32,596 bases of DNA from Chlorobiaceae bacterium (GTDB lineage: Bacteria; Bacteroidota; Chlorobiia; Chlorobiales; Chlorobiaceae): positions 1 to 32,596 of the forward strand of contig JAFGMZ010000156.1 of NCBI GenBank assembly GCA_016927285.1, given 5' to 3'. Numbering within the stretch: position 1 is the stretch's first letter; each line of letters starts with the position of its first letter. Shown here in pieces: positions 8,886 through 30,314 of this stretch. The position numbers and the translations under genes are program-made. Under the pieces are notes generated by a model. It searched no databases, was not told the DNA's origin, and saw only the letters and a program-made list of their open reading frames with translations.

Positions 8886-9029
8886 ATGAAGAAAACCCTG
8901 TTACTTGTTCTGCTCTTTTTTGAAGTCCTGCCGCATCAGCGACCCGGCCTGCATGCAGAAGAAAAACAAGGCCGCGAGTTGGCCATTCTGTGGTGGAATG
9001 TAATGCAGTGGAGACAGATCGTTCTATAA
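8886..9029 (+). pseudogene. orphaned 5' fragment of the EEP-family gene (native signal peptide) left of the integrated element
   Basis: MKKTLLLVLLFFEVLPHQRPGLHAEEKQGRELAILWWNV followed by element-encoded MQWRQIVL*. Joining 8886-9001 to 17564-18479 gives an intact 343-aa EEP ORF in frame. Confidence 0.88.
8985..9001 (+). repeat. attL core, 17-bp direct repeat
   Basis: ATTCTGTGGTGGAATGT, identical to 17547-17563. It contains ATTC-7nt-GAAT inverted arms. Confidence 0.9.
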
Positions 9030-10004: not shown

Positions 10005-10100
10005 TCCAATTCATTGAAAAGGTTATTGATTCTATTCACAAAGTATTGATTCTGAAGTAACTTCGCAGAACACATAAAGCCCAAAACCTCACCATTTTAT

Positions 10101-11275
10101 TGCCCCTTTTTATGGACTTCAGAAATCCCAGAATGTCCAGAAACCATGCAAACCACTTCGTAATAAGGGTAAGGACAGGGGGCATAGAAAGAGGATTGGA
10201 GGCCTGTTCTCACTTCCCGTGGTTTATTTCAAGCAACTTCCTTTTCTCAGCCTGAAACTCTTCTTCAGTTAGGATGCCACGCGCCTTAAGATCAGCAAGC
10301 TTTTTCAACTCTGCGTATACATCGACCTGCTTCTCGACACGAACAACAGTGTCTCTCGCTGTTGGCCTGCCTTCAGCGTCATACGCTTCTTGAGTTGATA
10401 CTGCTACCGTCGGATTACTTGCGACCCCTTCTGTTCCAGGGCGCACAAGACGGAACTTAAGATCTACCTGCGGCCACTTAGCAAAACCGGCTCCGATCTC
10501 ATTCACAGACACAACTTCCGCAACCATACCTTTGCTCGCCGCAAATTCGTTAGCCTTCTTGTATGCTTGCGCTCGAAGAGTCCCGACAGGCGTAAAACCA
10601 GTTGTACCTGTCTTTGTAACAGTGTAGACTTCACCAGCGGAAAGCATGATTGGTGAAGTAGTAGAACATCCACTCTGCAAAAGCAGAGTGGTGAGCACTG
10701 CGTTAACTGTAAGCATGACTTTCAACGTCGCAATTAGATTCCAACCAGTTTTTTTCATGTTAGTATGGGGGCTATGTTATGTTTGTTACGCTGAGGAAAT
10801 TTTTTTCAATATACGAATCGCTGTTTTCCGTAGAATATTATTGTGCAATACCGGTATCGAAAAACTCCTTCATAGCCTCACGCTGCTCCCGAAGCAACGC
10901 GTTCATCATCTTTGACTGCTCACGGTATTTCAACCATGTCCCGCCCTTATAAGCGTTTCTCGACGCTGCCGCCTTTCCGCTTTCTGTTACCGGCCCGAAG
11001 CCTTAACATTTGTCAACAATCTCGGATACACCCTTGTCCTGATCTTGCCCCTTTTTTATGGCTTCGGAAAACTCGGGATAGTGCTCTTTTTTATGGACTT
11101 CAGAAATTCCGGATAGCCCGTAATCCTCCCCAAATCCTCCCCATTTCCTTGCCCTTTTTATGGCCTCCAGAAAGTCCAGAATCTTTCCCAAAACCTTAGT
11201 ATTTCCTTAGGTGTTTTTCTGCCCCGAACCTTGCTAAAACCTTGCCCTTTTTATGGCCTCAGAAAACCCGGTGTA
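10101..11275. repeat. cluster of five degenerate direct repeats, TTGCCC(Y)TTTTTATGGMYTCAGAAANYCCRG
   Basis: Copies begin near 10101, 11046, 11082, 11149 and 11242, all sharing ...CYYTTTTTATGG.CTYC.GAAA... on the plus strand. One copy is separate; four lie within about 230 bp. Confidence 0.7.
10210..10758 (-). CDS. putative lipoprotein with C-terminal SHOCT-like domain
   Basis: Lipobox LLQSGC. C-terminus LKKLADLKARGILTEEEFQAEKRKLLE matches the SHOCT pattern. Confidence 0.75.
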   Translation of the reverse strand: MKKTGWNLIATLKVMLTVNAVLTTLLLQSGCSTTSPIMLSAGEVYTVTKTGTTGFTPVGTLRAQAYKKANEFAASKGMVAEVVSVNEIGAGFAKWPQVDLKFRLVRPGTEGVASNPTVAVSTQEAYDAEGRPTARDTVVRVEKQVDVYAELKKLADLKARGILTEEEFQAEKRKLLEINHGK

Positions 11276-11599: not shown

Positions 11600-11824
11600 T
11601 TATCGCAGAAATATCCACACTGCATCAACGAATAGAATATCGCTATAACGCTGACGTATGAGCCTGTTTTGTTGATCGGATGTGCCCGACCACCTACAAG
11701 AGATAATCCCGCCGATCTGCGGAATACCGCCGCGCCGGACACTCTCCCGGATCTCACCCGCCGGAACCTGAAAAAACCCCGCCATAAACGGCTCAGGTTG
11801 AACGATCTCCCGCCGCCTATACAT
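11600..11824 (-). CDS. possible small protein overlapping the end of the DUF6371-like gene
   Basis: 74-aa ORF whose start overlaps the 11817 stop region. Alternative ORF at 11563-11757 competes. Confidence 0.25.
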   Translation of the reverse strand: MYRRREIVQPEPFMAGFFQVPAGEIRESVRRGGIPQIGGIISCRWSGTSDQQNRLIRQRYSDILFVDAVWIFLR

Positions 11825-12722
11825 TGATAGCCTGCTCTCTCAGGATAAAATCAGCAAGGTCAAGGCCTGCGACCCGATCCTCTTCACTTGCCCGCCGTTC
11901 AAGCACATCCGAAACCCTCACGCCCGGCATCTGATCCACTGCAGCCTTCCACTTCTCGAACGCGCCAAGGTCAGGGAACAGTGTTACTTCCCGGCCTCTC
12001 AGAAGGCCCAGTTTCACTACTTTGAGATTGCCTTTTCCGGCTGTCGCAGTCCAGATATATTCCGGCATGAACCCGGCTGCAACTATCGCCGTCTTTTCGC
12101 TCTCCACAACAGCCACCGGCTTCACGGGATCCGCTGCTAACAGATGCTCCCCGAACAGGCACTGCCTCAAGTGATACAGCTCGATCTTCAACGCCTTGTG
12201 AACCCAGGTAACATGATTGAACGGCTCTTTCACTCGCCGGCCTGTCACCGCATCATACAGCATGATCTTTCCACCCCTGATCTTGCCGGTAACGTCCTGC
12301 TGCCAGAATATCGAAGCTCCCGGCCAATGCCTCGACGTGCCGACGTGATAGGCATCGACAAGCCGGAAGGCTATCTCTTCGCCGAATACGCTGCATAGCC
12401 ACAAAGCGAAATTGTTATGCCCGTAACCCGTCAGGCTCCGGCCCGCTGTCTCTGCATCAATGGACGACGGTTCAGGCTCCGGCATCGGCTCCTTTCGTCT
12501 CGCTGCTGCTGTCGGCGGTTTCGTGCCAGTTTGCCGGAAATACTCGCTCGGTCTCAGGTGATAGCCACATGAATCTTCCCTGTCACACCTCCCGACCTCA
12601 TCGGCAACCTGTTCGCCGGTCAAGGTATCGACATACCGGACGAACCTCCGCTGTTGTCGGCAAGCAGGGCAAGCGTACTTTACGCCACCCCGCTCAAGCC
12701 TATACCTGAAATCGCCTGTCAT
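11817..12722 (-). CDS. DUF6371-like zinc-ribbon/Toprim-type replication protein
   Basis: YACPACRQQRRFVRYVDTLTGEQVADEVGRCDREDSCGYHLRPSEYF (zinc-ribbon-like cysteines), then VVESEKTAIVAAGFMPEYIWTATAGKGNLK, the pattern seen in Bacteroidetes/Chlorobi mobile-element DUF6371 proteins. Confidence 0.75.
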   Translation of the reverse strand: MTGDFRYRLERGGVKYACPACRQQRRFVRYVDTLTGEQVADEVGRCDREDSCGYHLRPSEYFRQTGTKPPTAAARRKEPMPEPEPSSIDAETAGRSLTGYGHNNFALWLCSVFGEEIAFRLVDAYHVGTSRHWPGASIFWQQDVTGKIRGGKIMLYDAVTGRRVKEPFNHVTWVHKALKIELYHLRQCLFGEHLLAADPVKPVAVVESEKTAIVAAGFMPEYIWTATAGKGNLKVVKLGLLRGREVTLFPDLGAFEKWKAAVDQMPGVRVSDVLERRASEEDRVAGLDLADFILREQAINV

Positions 12723-12742
12723 TATTACGCTTCTTTTCTTGT

Positions 12743-12785
12743 GGAAAAAAGATGTTTTCAGAATGTCCGAAATGTCGAAATGTCG
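12743..12785 (+). repeat. 43-bp inverted repeat, copy A
   Basis: GGAAAAAAGATGTTTTCAGAATGTCCGAAATGTCGAAATGTCG; the reverse complement is at 14157-14201 with two substitutions and two extra A. Confidence 0.9.
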
Positions 12786-12794
12786 AAAACAGTG

Positions 12795-14300
12795 CTAAAA
12801 CGGAACCGGATCCAAGCGCCTAACACAACCGAACCCCCATCCCGTGCGCTTCACCTTCTCAAGTCCACAGGCCTCCAAGCGCTTCGAGAAATTCTGTTTC
12901 CCTAATGGCCTGTACCCGTCATCAGCGCAAAAGCTCTTATAGCCTTTGTAGAGTTCTCCTAACGTCTCGAAGCCGACACCTGAAGGCTCAAGCGCTTGTT
13001 CATCGACGAACATCTGAACGGAATCACTTTCCCGCTTATACTGGTCAACCGCACACCGTGCGGCATCGCATTCACTGAACCGACCCTGCTGGAGTAATCG
13101 CCGCAGCCCTTCCAGTGCCCAGTTCAAAACTCCCGGTAGTTCCGAAGCAATGATCTTGCCGGCAAGCCCTTTGTCCTGCTCCGCCTCAGGAATCGTAACC
13201 GTGAAGGGGATAATCAGGAACCGCCGAAAATATGCGTTCGTATGTTCGACATCTCTCGGCAGTTCGTTTGCATTAAAAATCAGCTTCGCATAATCTCTCA
13301 TAATGAACGGCTTTTCGTAAGGCAAGCGCCCTTCTACTGGCTCCCCTGAGACAAGCTGTTTAAACAAGCTCGCTTCAAGCTTGCCGTTTATCTCTGAAGC
13401 GTAATTCACAAGCTTGTCAGCTATCATCGCCCGGTAGTAACCGTTCCGGCTGTCGGTCAGGCTCGACAAGCTGTAACTGCTCGCGTTCTCCGCGCCAAGC
13501 AAGGCAAGCAGTATATCGAACCAAACACTCTTGCCGTTTGCGCCGGTGCCGTAAAGTAGCAGCGCCTTTTCAAGCTTCATGCCTCGAACGAACACGTAAC
13601 CCACAAACTCCGCTAAAACCCGCTGCGAATCTGTATCCGGAAGAACCCTCTCAAGGAATGAGCGGAACAAAGGCGCCTCAGCGTTCTCCCTGTACTCGAA
13701 CGGCAAAACATGCGTCAGGAAATCCGCGCTCCGGTGCTCACGCAGCCGGTGCCCATCGGCATCTATTTCAAGTGTGCCGTTCTGCAGGTTGATAAGGGTT
13801 CGCACCGTGCTAACGTCCGGCTGTGTCAGGTGCGCTTCGCTGTGGAACTGCTCAAGCAAGTCCTTCCGAAACTTGTAATCGTCGGCTCGATACCTCGGAA
13901 CGCCCGATCTCAGCGCCGCCGCCCCCAAAAATGCCTTCATATCATCAGGATCGACCCTCCGCCAATGCGCCCCGGTGTACACGTAAACGTTGCCGTTCTT
14001 TTTACAAACTCCCCAACCCTTATGTTTGGCTAAGTGAACTATATTCTTTACCGAGTATATTCGGTGATGAACCGCTCTCACTTCCTCGCCGCCGGCGACC
14101 CTGGCAAAATCGACCGGCTCGATCTCCTCAAGAAGCTGCCCAAGAATCTCACTTGCCGACATTTCGACATTTCGGACATTCGCAAAACATCTTTTTTTTC
14201 CTGATAATTGTGCAGTATTACCCGTTTCGGCACCGCCCTTGCTGCCGTCCAGCTGCTTGTTGGAAAACCCTGCCCTGATCTCATCAATGGTGCTGCTCAT
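12795..14300 (-). CDS. P4/D5-family primase-helicase (SF3 ATPase)
   Basis: LLLYGTGANGKSVWFDILLALLG (Walker A), KLVNYASEINGKLEASLFKQLVSGEPVEGRLPYEKPF, KLIFNANELPRDVEHTNAYFRRFLIIPF (SF3/D5 signature). The alternative start ATGTCGGCAAGT near 14163 is possible. Confidence 0.9.
   Translation of the reverse strand: MSSTIDEIRAGFSNKQLDGSKGGAETGNTAQLSGKKRCFANVRNVEMSASEILGQLLEEIEPVDFARVAGGEEVRAVHHRIYSVKNIVHLAKHKGWGVCKKNGNVYVYTGAHWRRVDPDDMKAFLGAAALRSGVPRYRADDYKFRKDLLEQFHSEAHLTQPDVSTVRTLINLQNGTLEIDADGHRLREHRSADFLTHVLPFEYRENAEAPLFRSFLERVLPDTDSQRVLAEFVGYVFVRGMKLEKALLLYGTGANGKSVWFDILLALLGAENASSYSLSSLTDSRNGYYRAMIADKLVNYASEINGKLEASLFKQLVSGEPVEGRLPYEKPFIMRDYAKLIFNANELPRDVEHTNAYFRRFLIIPFTVTIPEAEQDKGLAGKIIASELPGVLNWALEGLRRLLQQGRFSECDAARCAVDQYKRESDSVQMFVDEQALEPSGVGFETLGELYKGYKSFCADDGYRPLGKQNFSKRLEACGLEKVKRTGWGFGCVRRLDPVPF
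14157..14201 (-). repeat. 45-bp inverted repeat, copy B
   Basis: Minus strand GGAAAAAAAAGATGTTTTGCGAATGTCCGAAATGTCGAAATGTCG; partner of copy A at 12743-12785. Confidence 0.9.
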
Positions 14301-14391: not shown

Positions 14392-14700
14392 TCATCGCTG
14401 CCCTCCTTGCTCTTTTGTGCATCGAATGCAGCCGTTCCGATCCACGTAGTAGCTGAACCTGAGCTTTGACGGGAAGTCCTTCAGGAGCACATACGCATCA
14501 CTACAGGCGCGCCGGACATTCCGCCTGTAGGCATCAAGATCGAAGGCTTTGAGATTGTCGGAAGGAATTGTATCTTTCTTTTGTGCTCGATCATTCGCCC
14601 GATCTTCACGATTCTGGTTTTGCCCTCTCGGACTCGCCCCCGGAAGGGCACTACTGTTTCCAGTCATTTTGCACCCTCCTTCACGGCTATGTGAGTACAA
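14392..14700 (-). CDS. hypothetical protein
   Basis: 102-aa ORF, co-directional with and overlapping the HTH gene end, consistent with translational coupling. Confidence 0.5.
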   Translation of the reverse strand: MYSHSREGGCKMTGNSSALPGASPRGQNQNREDRANDRAQKKDTIPSDNLKAFDLDAYRRNVRRACSDAYVLLKDFPSKLRFSYYVDRNGCIRCTKEQGGQR

Positions 14701-14963
14701 GCCGCCGCTTCGATCTCTTCAGCCGTAGCCTTGCGTCCCCGAAGCATCCATGCCTCAAGCTCCTCGCGATTGAAATAAATCGCCTTACCTGTCGGTTTGT
14801 AACACGGGATTCCGTTTGTGCTGGTGAGTTTGTAGAGATGAGACAGCGATAACCCTGTGAGAATTGCTGCTTCGCGCATGGTGAGAACAGTCTTGTTTGC
14901 CACAAGTAGTCCCTCGATACGCTCCAAGCGCTCATTCATCTGGTCAAGTTCAGGTAATGCCAT
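14664..14963 (-). CDS. helix-turn-helix / excisionase-like DNA-binding protein
   Basis: VLTMREAAILTGLSLSHLYKLTSTNGIPCYKPTGKAIYFNREELEAWML is the MerR/Xis-type winged HTH pattern. Confidence 0.85.
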   Translation of the reverse strand: MALPELDQMNERLERIEGLLVANKTVLTMREAAILTGLSLSHLYKLTSTNGIPCYKPTGKAIYFNREELEAWMLRGRKATAEEIEAAACTHIAVKEGAK

Positions 14964-15102: not shown

Positions 15103-16098
15103 CTATCCGCGATCAGTAATCCGACTAACGATTTCATGAATCATCGGCCCTTTGTCTGGGACACCTTTTTTACCAGTATTCAAACCCCCGGATAAAGTAG
15201 TATTGTTATCTTTGTAGTTACTCCTTGCCTGCCTCAGGTTGCTGAATGTTTCCGGGTTACCATCTGCCGAATAATCACCATTAAAGAAACGCGACCCGAT
15301 AAGACGGTCTGAAGCGCTCTTCTTTTTTACTAAACCGTTTTCTTTCAGAATCTCAAAAAGGTATGCAAGTAGAGTAATTTCATCTCGCCATTCACAAGGT
15401 TCTTCTACCACTCGTCTCGCCTTATCGAACTGTCCTTCGAAGGCTTCAGCACTGGCAATGAACCTCTCCTTTTGCAGCTCAGCTGTAAGCCGATCCAACT
15501 GTTCAGCTGTGCCCATCCACCCGATAAACTTCCGCGCTTGCAGTTCACCCGCCGCCGGTTCTCCGGCCTGCTCTGCTGGATCATCCTGCCCAACTCGCTC
15601 CGAAATCATGGCTTGAAGCTTCTGGAGAACAATAATCTTTCTCAATAAATCATCATCGCCAACCCATTCAGGGCAGCAAAAATCGTAACAAATGCGAGTA
15701 AAGTATGGATTCCCGGAACCATCCCATATGTCTGAAGGCCATTTCCCACCGAGCCGCTTGAAACATGCGGTCAAATATCGGTTCACCATTCCCGTGATAT
15801 ACCCCTGATACTCCTCTGGACTGCTCTGTACCTGATTGAGAATGGCTTCAAGAGACTTCCCCATCCAATCAGCGGGAGCATCCATGTAACACAGTGGTAT
15901 TTGAGGAAAGTTACGACCATCCTTTAAAAGCCCTTGCATATACTCGCCATATTCATCAGGGGCGGTTATCATCCATTGTTGACGGCGGTTGGCCTCCTTC
16001 GACGCCTCAGCAGGCCAATCTATCTCCCTTGCATTGCACAATTCAGCTCTAAGATCTCCCTCCGAAGGAGTCCATTCCGATCTATCAAATTCGCCCAT
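15103..16098 (-). CDS. hypothetical protein between integrase and HTH genes
   Basis: 331-aa ORF on the same strand as the other element genes, with normal protein composition. No family recognised. Confidence 0.65.
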   Translation of the reverse strand: MGEFDRSEWTPSEGDLRAELCNAREIDWPAEASKEANRRQQWMITAPDEYGEYMQGLLKDGRNFPQIPLCYMDAPADWMGKSLEAILNQVQSSPEEYQGYITGMVNRYLTACFKRLGGKWPSDIWDGSGNPYFTRICYDFCCPEWVGDDDLLRKIIVLQKLQAMISERVGQDDPAEQAGEPAAGELQARKFIGWMGTAEQLDRLTAELQKERFIASAEAFEGQFDKARRVVEEPCEWRDEITLLAYLFEILKENGLVKKKSASDRLIGSRFFNGDYSADGNPETFSNLRQARSNYKDNNTTLSGGLNTGKKGVPDKGPMIHEIVSRITDRG

Positions 16099-16111: not shown

Positions 16112-17275
16112 TTAAATGTTCAGCCCTGAAAGCTCAGGAATCCGCGCCGTCATCGCTTCCCTTCTTGTCTTGTCCAGAATATCGGCATAGATAGCCGTTA
16201 CCTCTATCTCCCTGTGGCCTAATAGCCGGCTCAGGGTGTAAATGTCCGTCCCGTTCTCAAGCTGCAACACGGCGAAGGTATGGCGGCCGGAATGAAACGT
16301 CAGGTGCTTGGTAATGCCAGCCTTCAGAGCCCATTCACGGAGAACGATGCTGAGGTAAGCTGAATATGCGCTTATAGCAAAGAACACCCGATCATCGGGC
16401 GCGCCAGATTCCCCCATGAGTTCCCGCGCCTGCTTTGATATGTCGAGATACTGCAACCCTTTTGTTTTTTGCTGGTGGAATACTACCCTCCAGCCTTCGC
16501 CCTGCCGCTGCACCTCGCCCCATGTCAACTTATGGCAATCAGAGAAGCGTAGCCCGGTAAGGCACGAGAACAGGAACATCCGCTTCAGCGTAGGGTTCCG
16601 GCATTCAGCCTTTGCTATTGCCTGAAGTTCGTCGAAGGTCAGGTATTCCCGCTTGTGTGAAATGATCTTTGGGCGCGCCACACCCTTCGCAGGGTCAACG
16701 GAAAGAATCCCGTCCTTTATCGCCTTATTCAAGCAAGCCTTGAACTTCCCGTAATAAGCGCCCTGAGACGCTGAAGAGAGCCCTTTCCCCGTTCTCGTTG
16801 TCGCCTCATCCCGGAGATAGTCCTTGAACCCTTCGCAAAACGCCTTATCGATCTCCCGGAAGGTGATTCTCGAAGAGTACAGCTTCTCGACAAAACCGGT
16901 GAGGTGTTTCAGCGTGCTTGTCCAGTTTCCCGGATCGTCAGGAGTAGCCTTCTTCTCCGCTTCAGCCTTGAAATAAGTGAGAAACAAGGCCTTGTCCTTT
17001 ACTCCTGCATCAAAACCATATTGACCGTTCTTGATCTCAAGTTCCCGCTTTGCCTTGATCGACTTGGCAAGCTCAAGTATATTCTTGTTATGCTCTTTTT
17101 CCGCCGCTGTTCTCGGCTTGTCGTCAAGATACAGGTTCAGGTATTCGTAATCCCTGAGAACCTTCGCTTTCCCGTCAGGCTGTGTAACCGCGCCCTTGTA
17201 AAACTCAAGATACAGGCTTATGCGCCCGCTCTTACCCTGCTTCCGCTTCCGCAAGTGTACGGATGAAACGTCCAT
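16112..17275 (-). CDS. int: tyrosine recombinase / integrase
   Basis: FLFSCLTGLRFSDCHKLTW (catalytic R), HLTFHSGRHTFAVLQLENGTDIYTLSRLLGHREIEVTAIYADI (HxxR, H, Y), plus a Bacteroidetes-type N-terminal arm-binding region MDVSSVHLRKRKQGKSGRISLYLEF. A TTG start at 17311 is also possible. Confidence 0.93.
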   Translation of the reverse strand: MDVSSVHLRKRKQGKSGRISLYLEFYKGAVTQPDGKAKVLRDYEYLNLYLDDKPRTAAEKEHNKNILELAKSIKAKRELEIKNGQYGFDAGVKDKALFLTYFKAEAEKKATPDDPGNWTSTLKHLTGFVEKLYSSRITFREIDKAFCEGFKDYLRDEATTRTGKGLSSASQGAYYGKFKACLNKAIKDGILSVDPAKGVARPKIISHKREYLTFDELQAIAKAECRNPTLKRMFLFSCLTGLRFSDCHKLTWGEVQRQGEGWRVVFHQQKTKGLQYLDISKQARELMGESGAPDDRVFFAISAYSAYLSIVLREWALKAGITKHLTFHSGRHTFAVLQLENGTDIYTLSRLLGHREIEVTAIYADILDKTRREAMTARIPELSGLNI

Positions 17276-17312
17276 GCTCTTTCCCTGTTTGACCTTATGG
17301 AACAGCAACAAA

Positions 17313-18479
17313 ATGGAACGTCAGCAAATCAATTTATATCAGTCACTTAGAGACTTTACTGATAGCCGAAAACGCCCAAAAACCGCCCTTTTCTTGTTGC
17401 TATTTTTGTTGTTACCTCTTCAAAGTAGCAAATCAGCAACAAATAAACCACAAATAACAACAAAATATCAGAAAGAAAGCGCTCTCAAATCAGGTTTAAC
17501 AGCTAATAATAGAAAGGATTACGTAAAGGAAGGAAAAGAACTATTGATTCTGTGGTGGAATGTGGAGAACCTTTTCGACACCATTGATAATCCTGCAACT
17601 GAAGATAATGAATTTACGCCTGCCGGAAAACGGCAGTGGACAGAGAAAAAACTGGCATTGAAAAGGATCCGGATCAGGCGGGTGCTCGAAACTCTCAAAG
17701 TCGATCCGGATGTGGATCGTTACCCTGACATTATAGCATTTGCGGAAACGGAAAACCGCAAGGTTTTCGTGGGTTCGCTTAAAAACATTACCGGCATATC
17801 CTACAGAACCGTCTACTACGAGTCCCCTGATACAAGAGGCATCGATATCGGACTCGCATACAACCCGAAGAGTGTCGGGCTTCGCGCCTCGAAAGCATAT
17901 CATGTGCCAATCGTCAACGATAAACCGACCAGGCATATCATCGCAGCCGGTTTTTCCGCAGGCCGACATCCGTTTCACCTCATCCTCAATCACTGGCCAT
18001 CAAGAGCCTTTGACCGGGAATGGAGCGAACAGAAACGCATTGCAGCCGCAAAGGTAGCACGGCACATCGCTGACAGTCTTCGAACAGTCGACCTCAGTGC
18101 CGATATTATCGTCATGGGAGATTTCAATGACGAACCCCATGACCGATCGGTAAGAGACGTTCTCGGATCTTCCGGCGACAGAAAAAAAGTACTGAAGGAG
18201 TGCCGGGAGCTTTTTTACAACTGCTGGAGTGACTATGAGGGCATCGGCAGCTATTGGTACAGGAATAAATGGGAGCGGATCGACCAGATTCTGATATCTT
18301 GCGGCATGCTGCAGCCGAAAGGATTGTCTGCCGCGCCCAACGCTTTCAGATGCTATCATTTTCCCGACATGCTCACGAGATCGTCGGGAAAACCTTACCA
18401 GACCTACTATAGGGGTCAGTACAAAGGGGGCTATTCCGATCACCTCCCGTTATTGCTCAGGGTTTCTGTCGAGCAATGA
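17313..18479 (+). CDS. EEP (endonuclease/exonuclease/phosphatase) family protein; 5' end element-encoded, remainder host-encoded
   Basis: MERQQINLYQSLRDFTDSRKRPKTALFLLLFLLLPLQSSKSATNKPQ...GKELLILWWNVENLFDTIDNPATEDNEF...HFHLILNHWPS-type region...IIVMGDFNDEPHDRSV...YSDHLPLLLRVSVEQ; EEP motifs WNVEN, NHWPS, GDFND, SDHLP. The att core lies at 17547-17563 within the frame. Confidence 0.88.
   Translation: MERQQINLYQSLRDFTDSRKRPKTALFLLLFLLLPLQSSKSATNKPQITTKYQKESALKSGLTANNRKDYVKEGKELLILWWNVENLFDTIDNPATEDNEFTPAGKRQWTEKKLALKRIRIRRVLETLKVDPDVDRYPDIIAFAETENRKVFVGSLKNITGISYRTVYYESPDTRGIDIGLAYNPKSVGLRASKAYHVPIVNDKPTRHIIAAGFSAGRHPFHLILNHWPSRAFDREWSEQKRIAAAKVARHIADSLRTVDLSADIIVMGDFNDEPHDRSVRDVLGSSGDRKKVLKECRELFYNCWSDYEGIGSYWYRNKWERIDQILISCGMLQPKGLSAAPNAFRCYHFPDMLTRSSGKPYQTYYRGQYKGGYSDHLPLLLRVSVEQ
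17547..17563 (+). repeat. attR core, 17-bp direct repeat
   Basis: ATTCTGTGGTGGAATGT, identical to 8985-9001 and in the same codon phase (ATT CTG TGG TGG AAT GT). Confidence 0.9.
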
Positions 18480-28056: not shown

Positions 28057-28245
28057 ATGGCACATCGAATCAGTGAAGAATGCACCTACTGCGGAGCATG
28101 CGAACCAGAATGCCCGGTCAACGCAATTTCAGCCGGTGACGACATCTATATCATCGACGAGAATGTCTGTATCGATTGTGTTGGCTACCACGATGAAGCG
28201 GCCTGCGTAGCGGTCTGCCCGGTAGACTGCATTTCCATGGTCTGA
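28057..28245 (+). CDS. 2[4Fe-4S] ferredoxin
   Basis: MAHRISEECTYCGACEPECPVNAISAGDDIYIIDENVCIDCVGYHDEAACVAVCPVDCISMV; two CxxCxxCxxxCP-type clusters. Confidence 0.95.
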   Translation: MAHRISEECTYCGACEPECPVNAISAGDDIYIIDENVCIDCVGYHDEAACVAVCPVDCISMV

Positions 28246-30008: not shown

Positions 30009-30125
30009 CCCACACCCCGAGCATGCTTTTTTTTGCCGGCTCAAAAAAAAGTTTATATTTTCGGAATTCTATGGAATTGTTCTTTCTTCCTTATTCACAA
30101 CCAACATTTAGAAAGGAACTTGGAT

Positions 30126-30314
30126 ATGGCACTCTACATTACTGAAGAATGCACCTACTGCGGCGCTTGCGAGCCGGAATGCCCGGTCAACGCAATTTCA
30201 GCCGGTGACGACGTTTATGTCATCGACGCCGGTTCGTGCACCGAGTGTGCTGGTTATGCAGATGCTCCTGCATGCGCCGCAGTCTGCCCTGCAGAGTGCA
30301 TCGTTCAGGGATGA
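30126..30314 (+). CDS. 2[4Fe-4S] ferredoxin
   Basis: MALYITEECTYCGACEPECPVNAISAGDDVYVIDAGSCTECAGYADAPACAAVCPAECIVQG. Confidence 0.95.
   Translation: MALYITEECTYCGACEPECPVNAISAGDDVYVIDAGSCTECAGYADAPACAAVCPAECIVQG

Follow-up and report, generated by a model that had tools for sequence, protein, structure and literature searches.

A putative replication origin split around the D5-family helicase gene of an integrated element in a Chlorobiaceae genome

Satellite phage P4 encodes a P4-family helicase, the alpha protein, which in this respect resembles the helicase described here; its replication needs two separated cis regions (ori and crr), and its iterons probably differ in sequence and arrangement from those of our element. 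NBU1-type mobilizable elements of Bacteroides combine an integrase, small ORFs and a primase gene with a nearby cis sequence needed in excision. For Cch2, an SCCmec helicase of the D5_N family, the C-terminal domain binds a 23-bp repeat with three 5-nt iterons, a putative origin located just downstream of the gene, and helicase activity and unwinding require the iteron (PMC7581432). PICI origins comprise two iteron sets beside rep, and the rep-ori segment drives plasmid replication (PMC6092414).

We analyzed a window of 32,596 nt, i.e., the whole stretch of DNA under study, in which a 17-bp direct repeat, ATTCTGTGGTGGAATGT, occurs on the forward strand at 8985 (8985–9001) and at 17547 (17547–17563), giving the att cores of the two element ends. 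The second copy lies within a conserved nuclease/phosphatase gene with matches in 61 of 65 genomes of the genus. Since both window flanks adjoin each other in another genome (G269, L126), the integrated mobile element is the 8.6-kb segment 8985–17563. The insertion sits at a WWNVEN motif of the conserved endonuclease/exonuclease/phosphatase-family gene, the 5′ part of which is cut off from the rest. In another species of the genus (G149), a short contig has the integrase-side end inserted at this very site, with 99.4% identity over 347 bp (window 17200–17546; L127), and no match to the helicase was found in the G149 genome; this suggests that the element moved recently. Another locus, L137, matches window 18459–16155 at 84%.

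The gene that the earlier note called a primase (12795–14300, reverse strand, as for all genes of the element listed here) encodes a 501-aa protein with D5_N, DUF5906 and Pox_D5 matches. It belongs to the D5/P4 family of helicases, with a TIGR01613 match of 183 bits vs. a curated cut-off of 108.7 that spans the helicase and C-terminal domains, and among solved structures the SaPI5 primase-helicase (7ola) is closest to it in sequence. The adjacent gene (11817–12722) encodes a Zn_ribbon_16 and DUF6371 protein, probably a primase partner. On the other side of the helicase gene lie a small ORF without family match (14392–14700), an excisionase-like HTH_17 protein (14664–14963), a 331-aa ORF without family match (15103–16098) and a tyrosine integrase (16112–17311). 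Set against a PICI phage satellite, only the integrase, the excisionase-like HTH protein and the helicase were found, and no mobilization gene was detected in the window element.

Two arms of 41 nt, 95% complementary to each other (12745–12785 and 14157–14197), form the longest and strongest inverted repeat of the window (self-BLAST, E = 3e-10; 19 kb) and bear out the earlier note's claim of a ~43-bp inverted repeat bracketing this gene. Copy A (12743–12785, forward strand), a putative half-origin of 43 bases reading GGAAAAAAGATGTTTTCAGAATGTCCGAAATGTCGAAATGTCG, falls within the 72 nt that separate the helicase stop (12795) from the start of the next gene (12722), and its A/T tract is followed by three iterons, TGTCC, TGTCG and TGTCG. 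Copy B (14157–14201, reverse strand), the putative inverted half-origin, is the reverse complement of copy A with two bases changed (CA to GC) and two extra A, and lies in the 5′ part of the helicase coding region, within the reading frame (KKRCFANVRNVEMS). The internal iteration that had been described for each copy is present as three ATGTC units. Copy B had also been placed over either the N-terminal codons or an alternative start of the gene. Because the ATG at 14300 is preceded by GAGGAGG and the first residues of the protein resemble those of the relative L006 (MSSTIDEIRAG in the window, MTSIIDEIRAE in L006), copy B is probably translated in frame as part of the helicase gene, and an alternative start is less likely. 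Across the 1.93-Mb assembly (86% complete), a third copy of the 16-nt core with 0 mismatches is absent, and elsewhere the core is matched just once with 1 mismatch and once with 2; a dispersed genomic repeat was rejected, as the genome has only two good copies.

The closest relatives, in which the helicase is 82% (L006/L062) and 69% (L007/L063) identical to that of the window, both have an inverted repeat at these two positions, so that the outcome named as refuting in the earlier note, copies missing or scattered at random in close relatives, did not occur there. The letters of these repeats differ from those of the window, and the arms agree with each other inside each relative, matching at 42 of 42 positions in L007. 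Overall, similar inverted arm pairs were found in ~50 relatives across Bacteroidota/Chlorobiota, with spacings from 12 bp to 8 kb, and arms of the same build also occur in a Legionellales record (L035). Distant relatives retain the pair and its placement shifts: the sequence between the arms is sometimes the helicase gene, sometimes the next gene and sometimes most of the element, and in many relatives the pair encloses no gene. One arrangement has the arms between the helicase and Zn genes with a short loop; in L042 and L099 they surround the Zn gene or part of it; in L087, L104, L105, L118 and L120 the A/T tracts face each other; and in L072, L073, L075, L076, L082, L086 and L096 the arms are found behind the integrase gene and close to the element's far side. 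Coding sequence contains arms in the window, L042, L046 and L104. At some helicase loci the sequence searched, for many of them just 1.5 kb to either side, contained no arm pair. Plasmid relatives were too distant, with <35% identity among the matches listed, and a scan of viral contigs returned three distant relatives. A third arm that closely duplicates one member of the pair was seen in L073 (at +3780 and +3843 from the helicase stop) and in L099 (at +1072 and +1243).

We examined the build of the arms in a set of 76 arms from 38 elements, chosen as inverted repeats and not for periodicity. Each arm consists of an A/T tract and three short iterons ~9 bp apart. Compared to shuffles, the 9-bp periodicity of the 76 arms reached z = 27 at lag 9 and z = 12.8 at lag 18, and a 25-mer alignment resolved three cores, each built around CA, in steps of 9 bp. 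Arms of the same element agree at 19.4 of 25 positions vs. 12.7 between elements, and none of 20,000 re-pairings reached the within-element agreement. The window iterons deviate from this pattern, with cores GTCC, GTCG and GTCG, steps of 9 and 8, and no CA. The register of the EM alignment was wrong for WIN, L063, L083 and L047; WIN, L063 and L047 were placed by hand, and L083 was excluded from covariation tests. In many relatives, e.g., L052 and L041, the spacers between iterons differ or are permuted between the two arms.

Iteron similarity between elements tracks the C-terminal part of the helicase (partial r = 0.26, p = 0.0005, given the SF3 core), and the C-terminal term had p = 0.003–0.004 in multiple regressions with D5_N and the SF3 core. 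It tracks neither the SF3 core nor the HTH protein, and with the helicase included in the model it does not track the integrase either. In the 29-element subset also having an integrase, D5_N outweighed the C-terminal part, and the C-terminal effect stood at p = 0.074 after close relatives were removed. When helicase columns were scanned for the base before CA, the column of the wing residue K484 (codon 12849–12851, reverse strand) ranked first. Counted per iteron, arginine in this column goes with 100 A, 27 G, 16 T and 1 C before CA, lysine with 47 T, 6 G and 1 C, and valine and threonine together with 21 C and 3 T. Among 15 elements fetched later, with iteron lists taken from an automatic scan, checked by eye and in some cases including one arm only, all 11 iterons of lysine-bearing elements had T, and 55 of the 63 iterons of arginine-bearing elements had A or G. 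In a model whose confidence is modest (mean pLDDT 65.5), K484 is placed between the predicted recognition helix (468–477) and a wing strand (493–495). Relatedness inflates such column scans, and other proteins give high columns too; path-disjoint K/R pairs on the best tree gave 6 for and 1 against (p = 0.125), and a formal independent-pairs test had only 2 to 3 pairs on supported branches.

We read the two arms as half-origins because of the published work on Cch2 (PMC7581432) and PICI (PMC6092414). Our main reading, to which we assign a probability of roughly 70%, is that the element's own self-loading helicase binds them and that they jointly form a replication origin split around its gene. 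The suggestion of initiator iterons or an origin in the earlier note is supported, since iteron pairs of this kind are found again in ~50 relatives and track the helicase C-terminal domain. Like Cch2, the window element has a D5_N-family helicase, a putative specific site next to its gene and three iterons, and this anatomy (three short iterons in ~23 bp) is present in the arms; three iterons in the 23 bp of Cch2 would be at a 9-bp step if equally spaced, and its spelling CACTT/ACCAC is close to the iterons of L075/L076. Cch2 has one triplet directly downstream of the gene, whereas the window element has two opposed triplets, one of them inside the gene. With SaPI/PICI, the window element shares two iteron sets and AT-rich DNA beside the rep gene of an integrated element, integrase and excisionase-like genes, and iterons that vary between elements. 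However, both SaPI/PICI sets flank a short AT-rich region directly 3′ of rep, while here the rep gene stands between a 3′ set and one in its 5′ part, the A/T tracts lie on the outer side of the arms, and in relatives other genes may stand between the iteron sets.

From these comparisons we infer binding, hexamer loading, melting, origin activity and direction as follows. The D5-family helicase encoded between the arms would bind them through its C-terminal winged-helix domain, and the covariation supports the proposal that this domain reads them. Each arm would act as a half-origin, with an A/T tract likely to melt beside three short iterons at ~9-bp steps, and the two half-origins would be oriented in opposite directions. 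After excision, the helicase would bind each triplet and assemble as hexamers that melt the A/T tract and then load, so that two opposed loading sites could lead to bidirectional replication. Alternatively, two helicase complexes may be bridged across the gene.

A different function for such sites would be that of operators, through which the helicase or the HTH_17 protein represses or times the replication genes with no origin role. Copy A is just upstream of the next gene, and many relatives have an arm just before the start of the Zn-protein gene or right after the integrase gene. We nevertheless regard this as unlikely, since arms also stand inside the coding sequences named above and close to the far end of the element, the HTH protein is not tracked by iteron similarity, and the arms invariably come as opposed pairs, an arrangement that operators do not require. 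As to the paired operators put forward in the earlier note, arm placement (in coding regions, between genes, near the element end) does not follow promoters, yet the arms may act as operators in a second role, autoregulation, beside the origin. Scans for sigma-70-type promoters (8 found vs. 4.5 expected) and terminators (8 vs. 5.8) were uninformative.

Less probable still would be a role of the arms as cis sites for excision or integration, either arm-type integrase sites or excision-required sequences like those reported for NBU1. One class of relatives does have one arm immediately behind the integrase gene and its partner close to the distal end of the element, but several kb separate the arms from the att cores in the window and in most relatives, and the lack of integrase tracking with the helicase in the model also speaks against it. 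We consider it very improbable that the arms form a long-range RNA duplex, in which the 5′ coding part of the helicase mRNA would pair with the region after the stop and control translation or decay: the nearly perfect complementarity in the window, perfect over 42 nt in L007, would fit, but the spacer differences and permutations of L052 and L041 are tolerable for iterons and not for a duplex, and pairs bracketing most of an element are unlikely to lie on one short transcript. Local RNA structure was not better than in shuffles (z = 0.34 and −0.49), and Rfam gave no match for the arms. Finally, recombination ends, i.e., inversion of the 1.4-kb segment as the earlier note had proposed or a transposon-like unit with terminal inverted repeats, have hardly any likelihood: the inverted arms enclose one gene and the homology of L062 and L063 begins at the left arm, but the helicase gene is in a single orientation, the same as that of the next gene, in the window, L006 and L007, no inverted helicase gene was seen among the relatives read, no recombinase lies between the arms, and many relatives have no gene between them.

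A broader proposal, whose chances we put somewhat short of even, is that the split origin is family-wide: each element may have two complete, opposed half-origins that function at nearly any spacing, even inside coding sequence, a single wing residue may set one iteron base, and origin and helicase may change their shared spelling together. If the arms do form an origin bound by the helicase, the relatives would represent a large natural set of matched helicase/origin pairs for self-loading D5-family helicases, which are common to satellites, plasmids, SCC elements and large DNA viruses. This set would vary widely in arm spacing and offer a residue-to-base rule that can be tested. Replication would also join the life cycle of widespread integrative elements in Bacteroidota and Chlorobiota.

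DNA similarity to close relatives begins at the left arm (window 12058–14200 vs. L062, and 12876–14195 vs. L063), and the upstream genes of the window differ from those of L062 and L063, as if the arm marked the edge of an exchanged replication module. On the far side of the element, window 10077–11260 holds five copies of degenerate direct repeats of 40–55 nt (e.g., CTCCCCAAATCCTCCCCATTTCCTTGCCCTTTTTATGGCCTC). Outside the element, a 176-nt direct repeat (77%) occurs at 28057–28232 and 30126–30301, and one of its copies is contained in a ferredoxin-like ORF (30033–30314).
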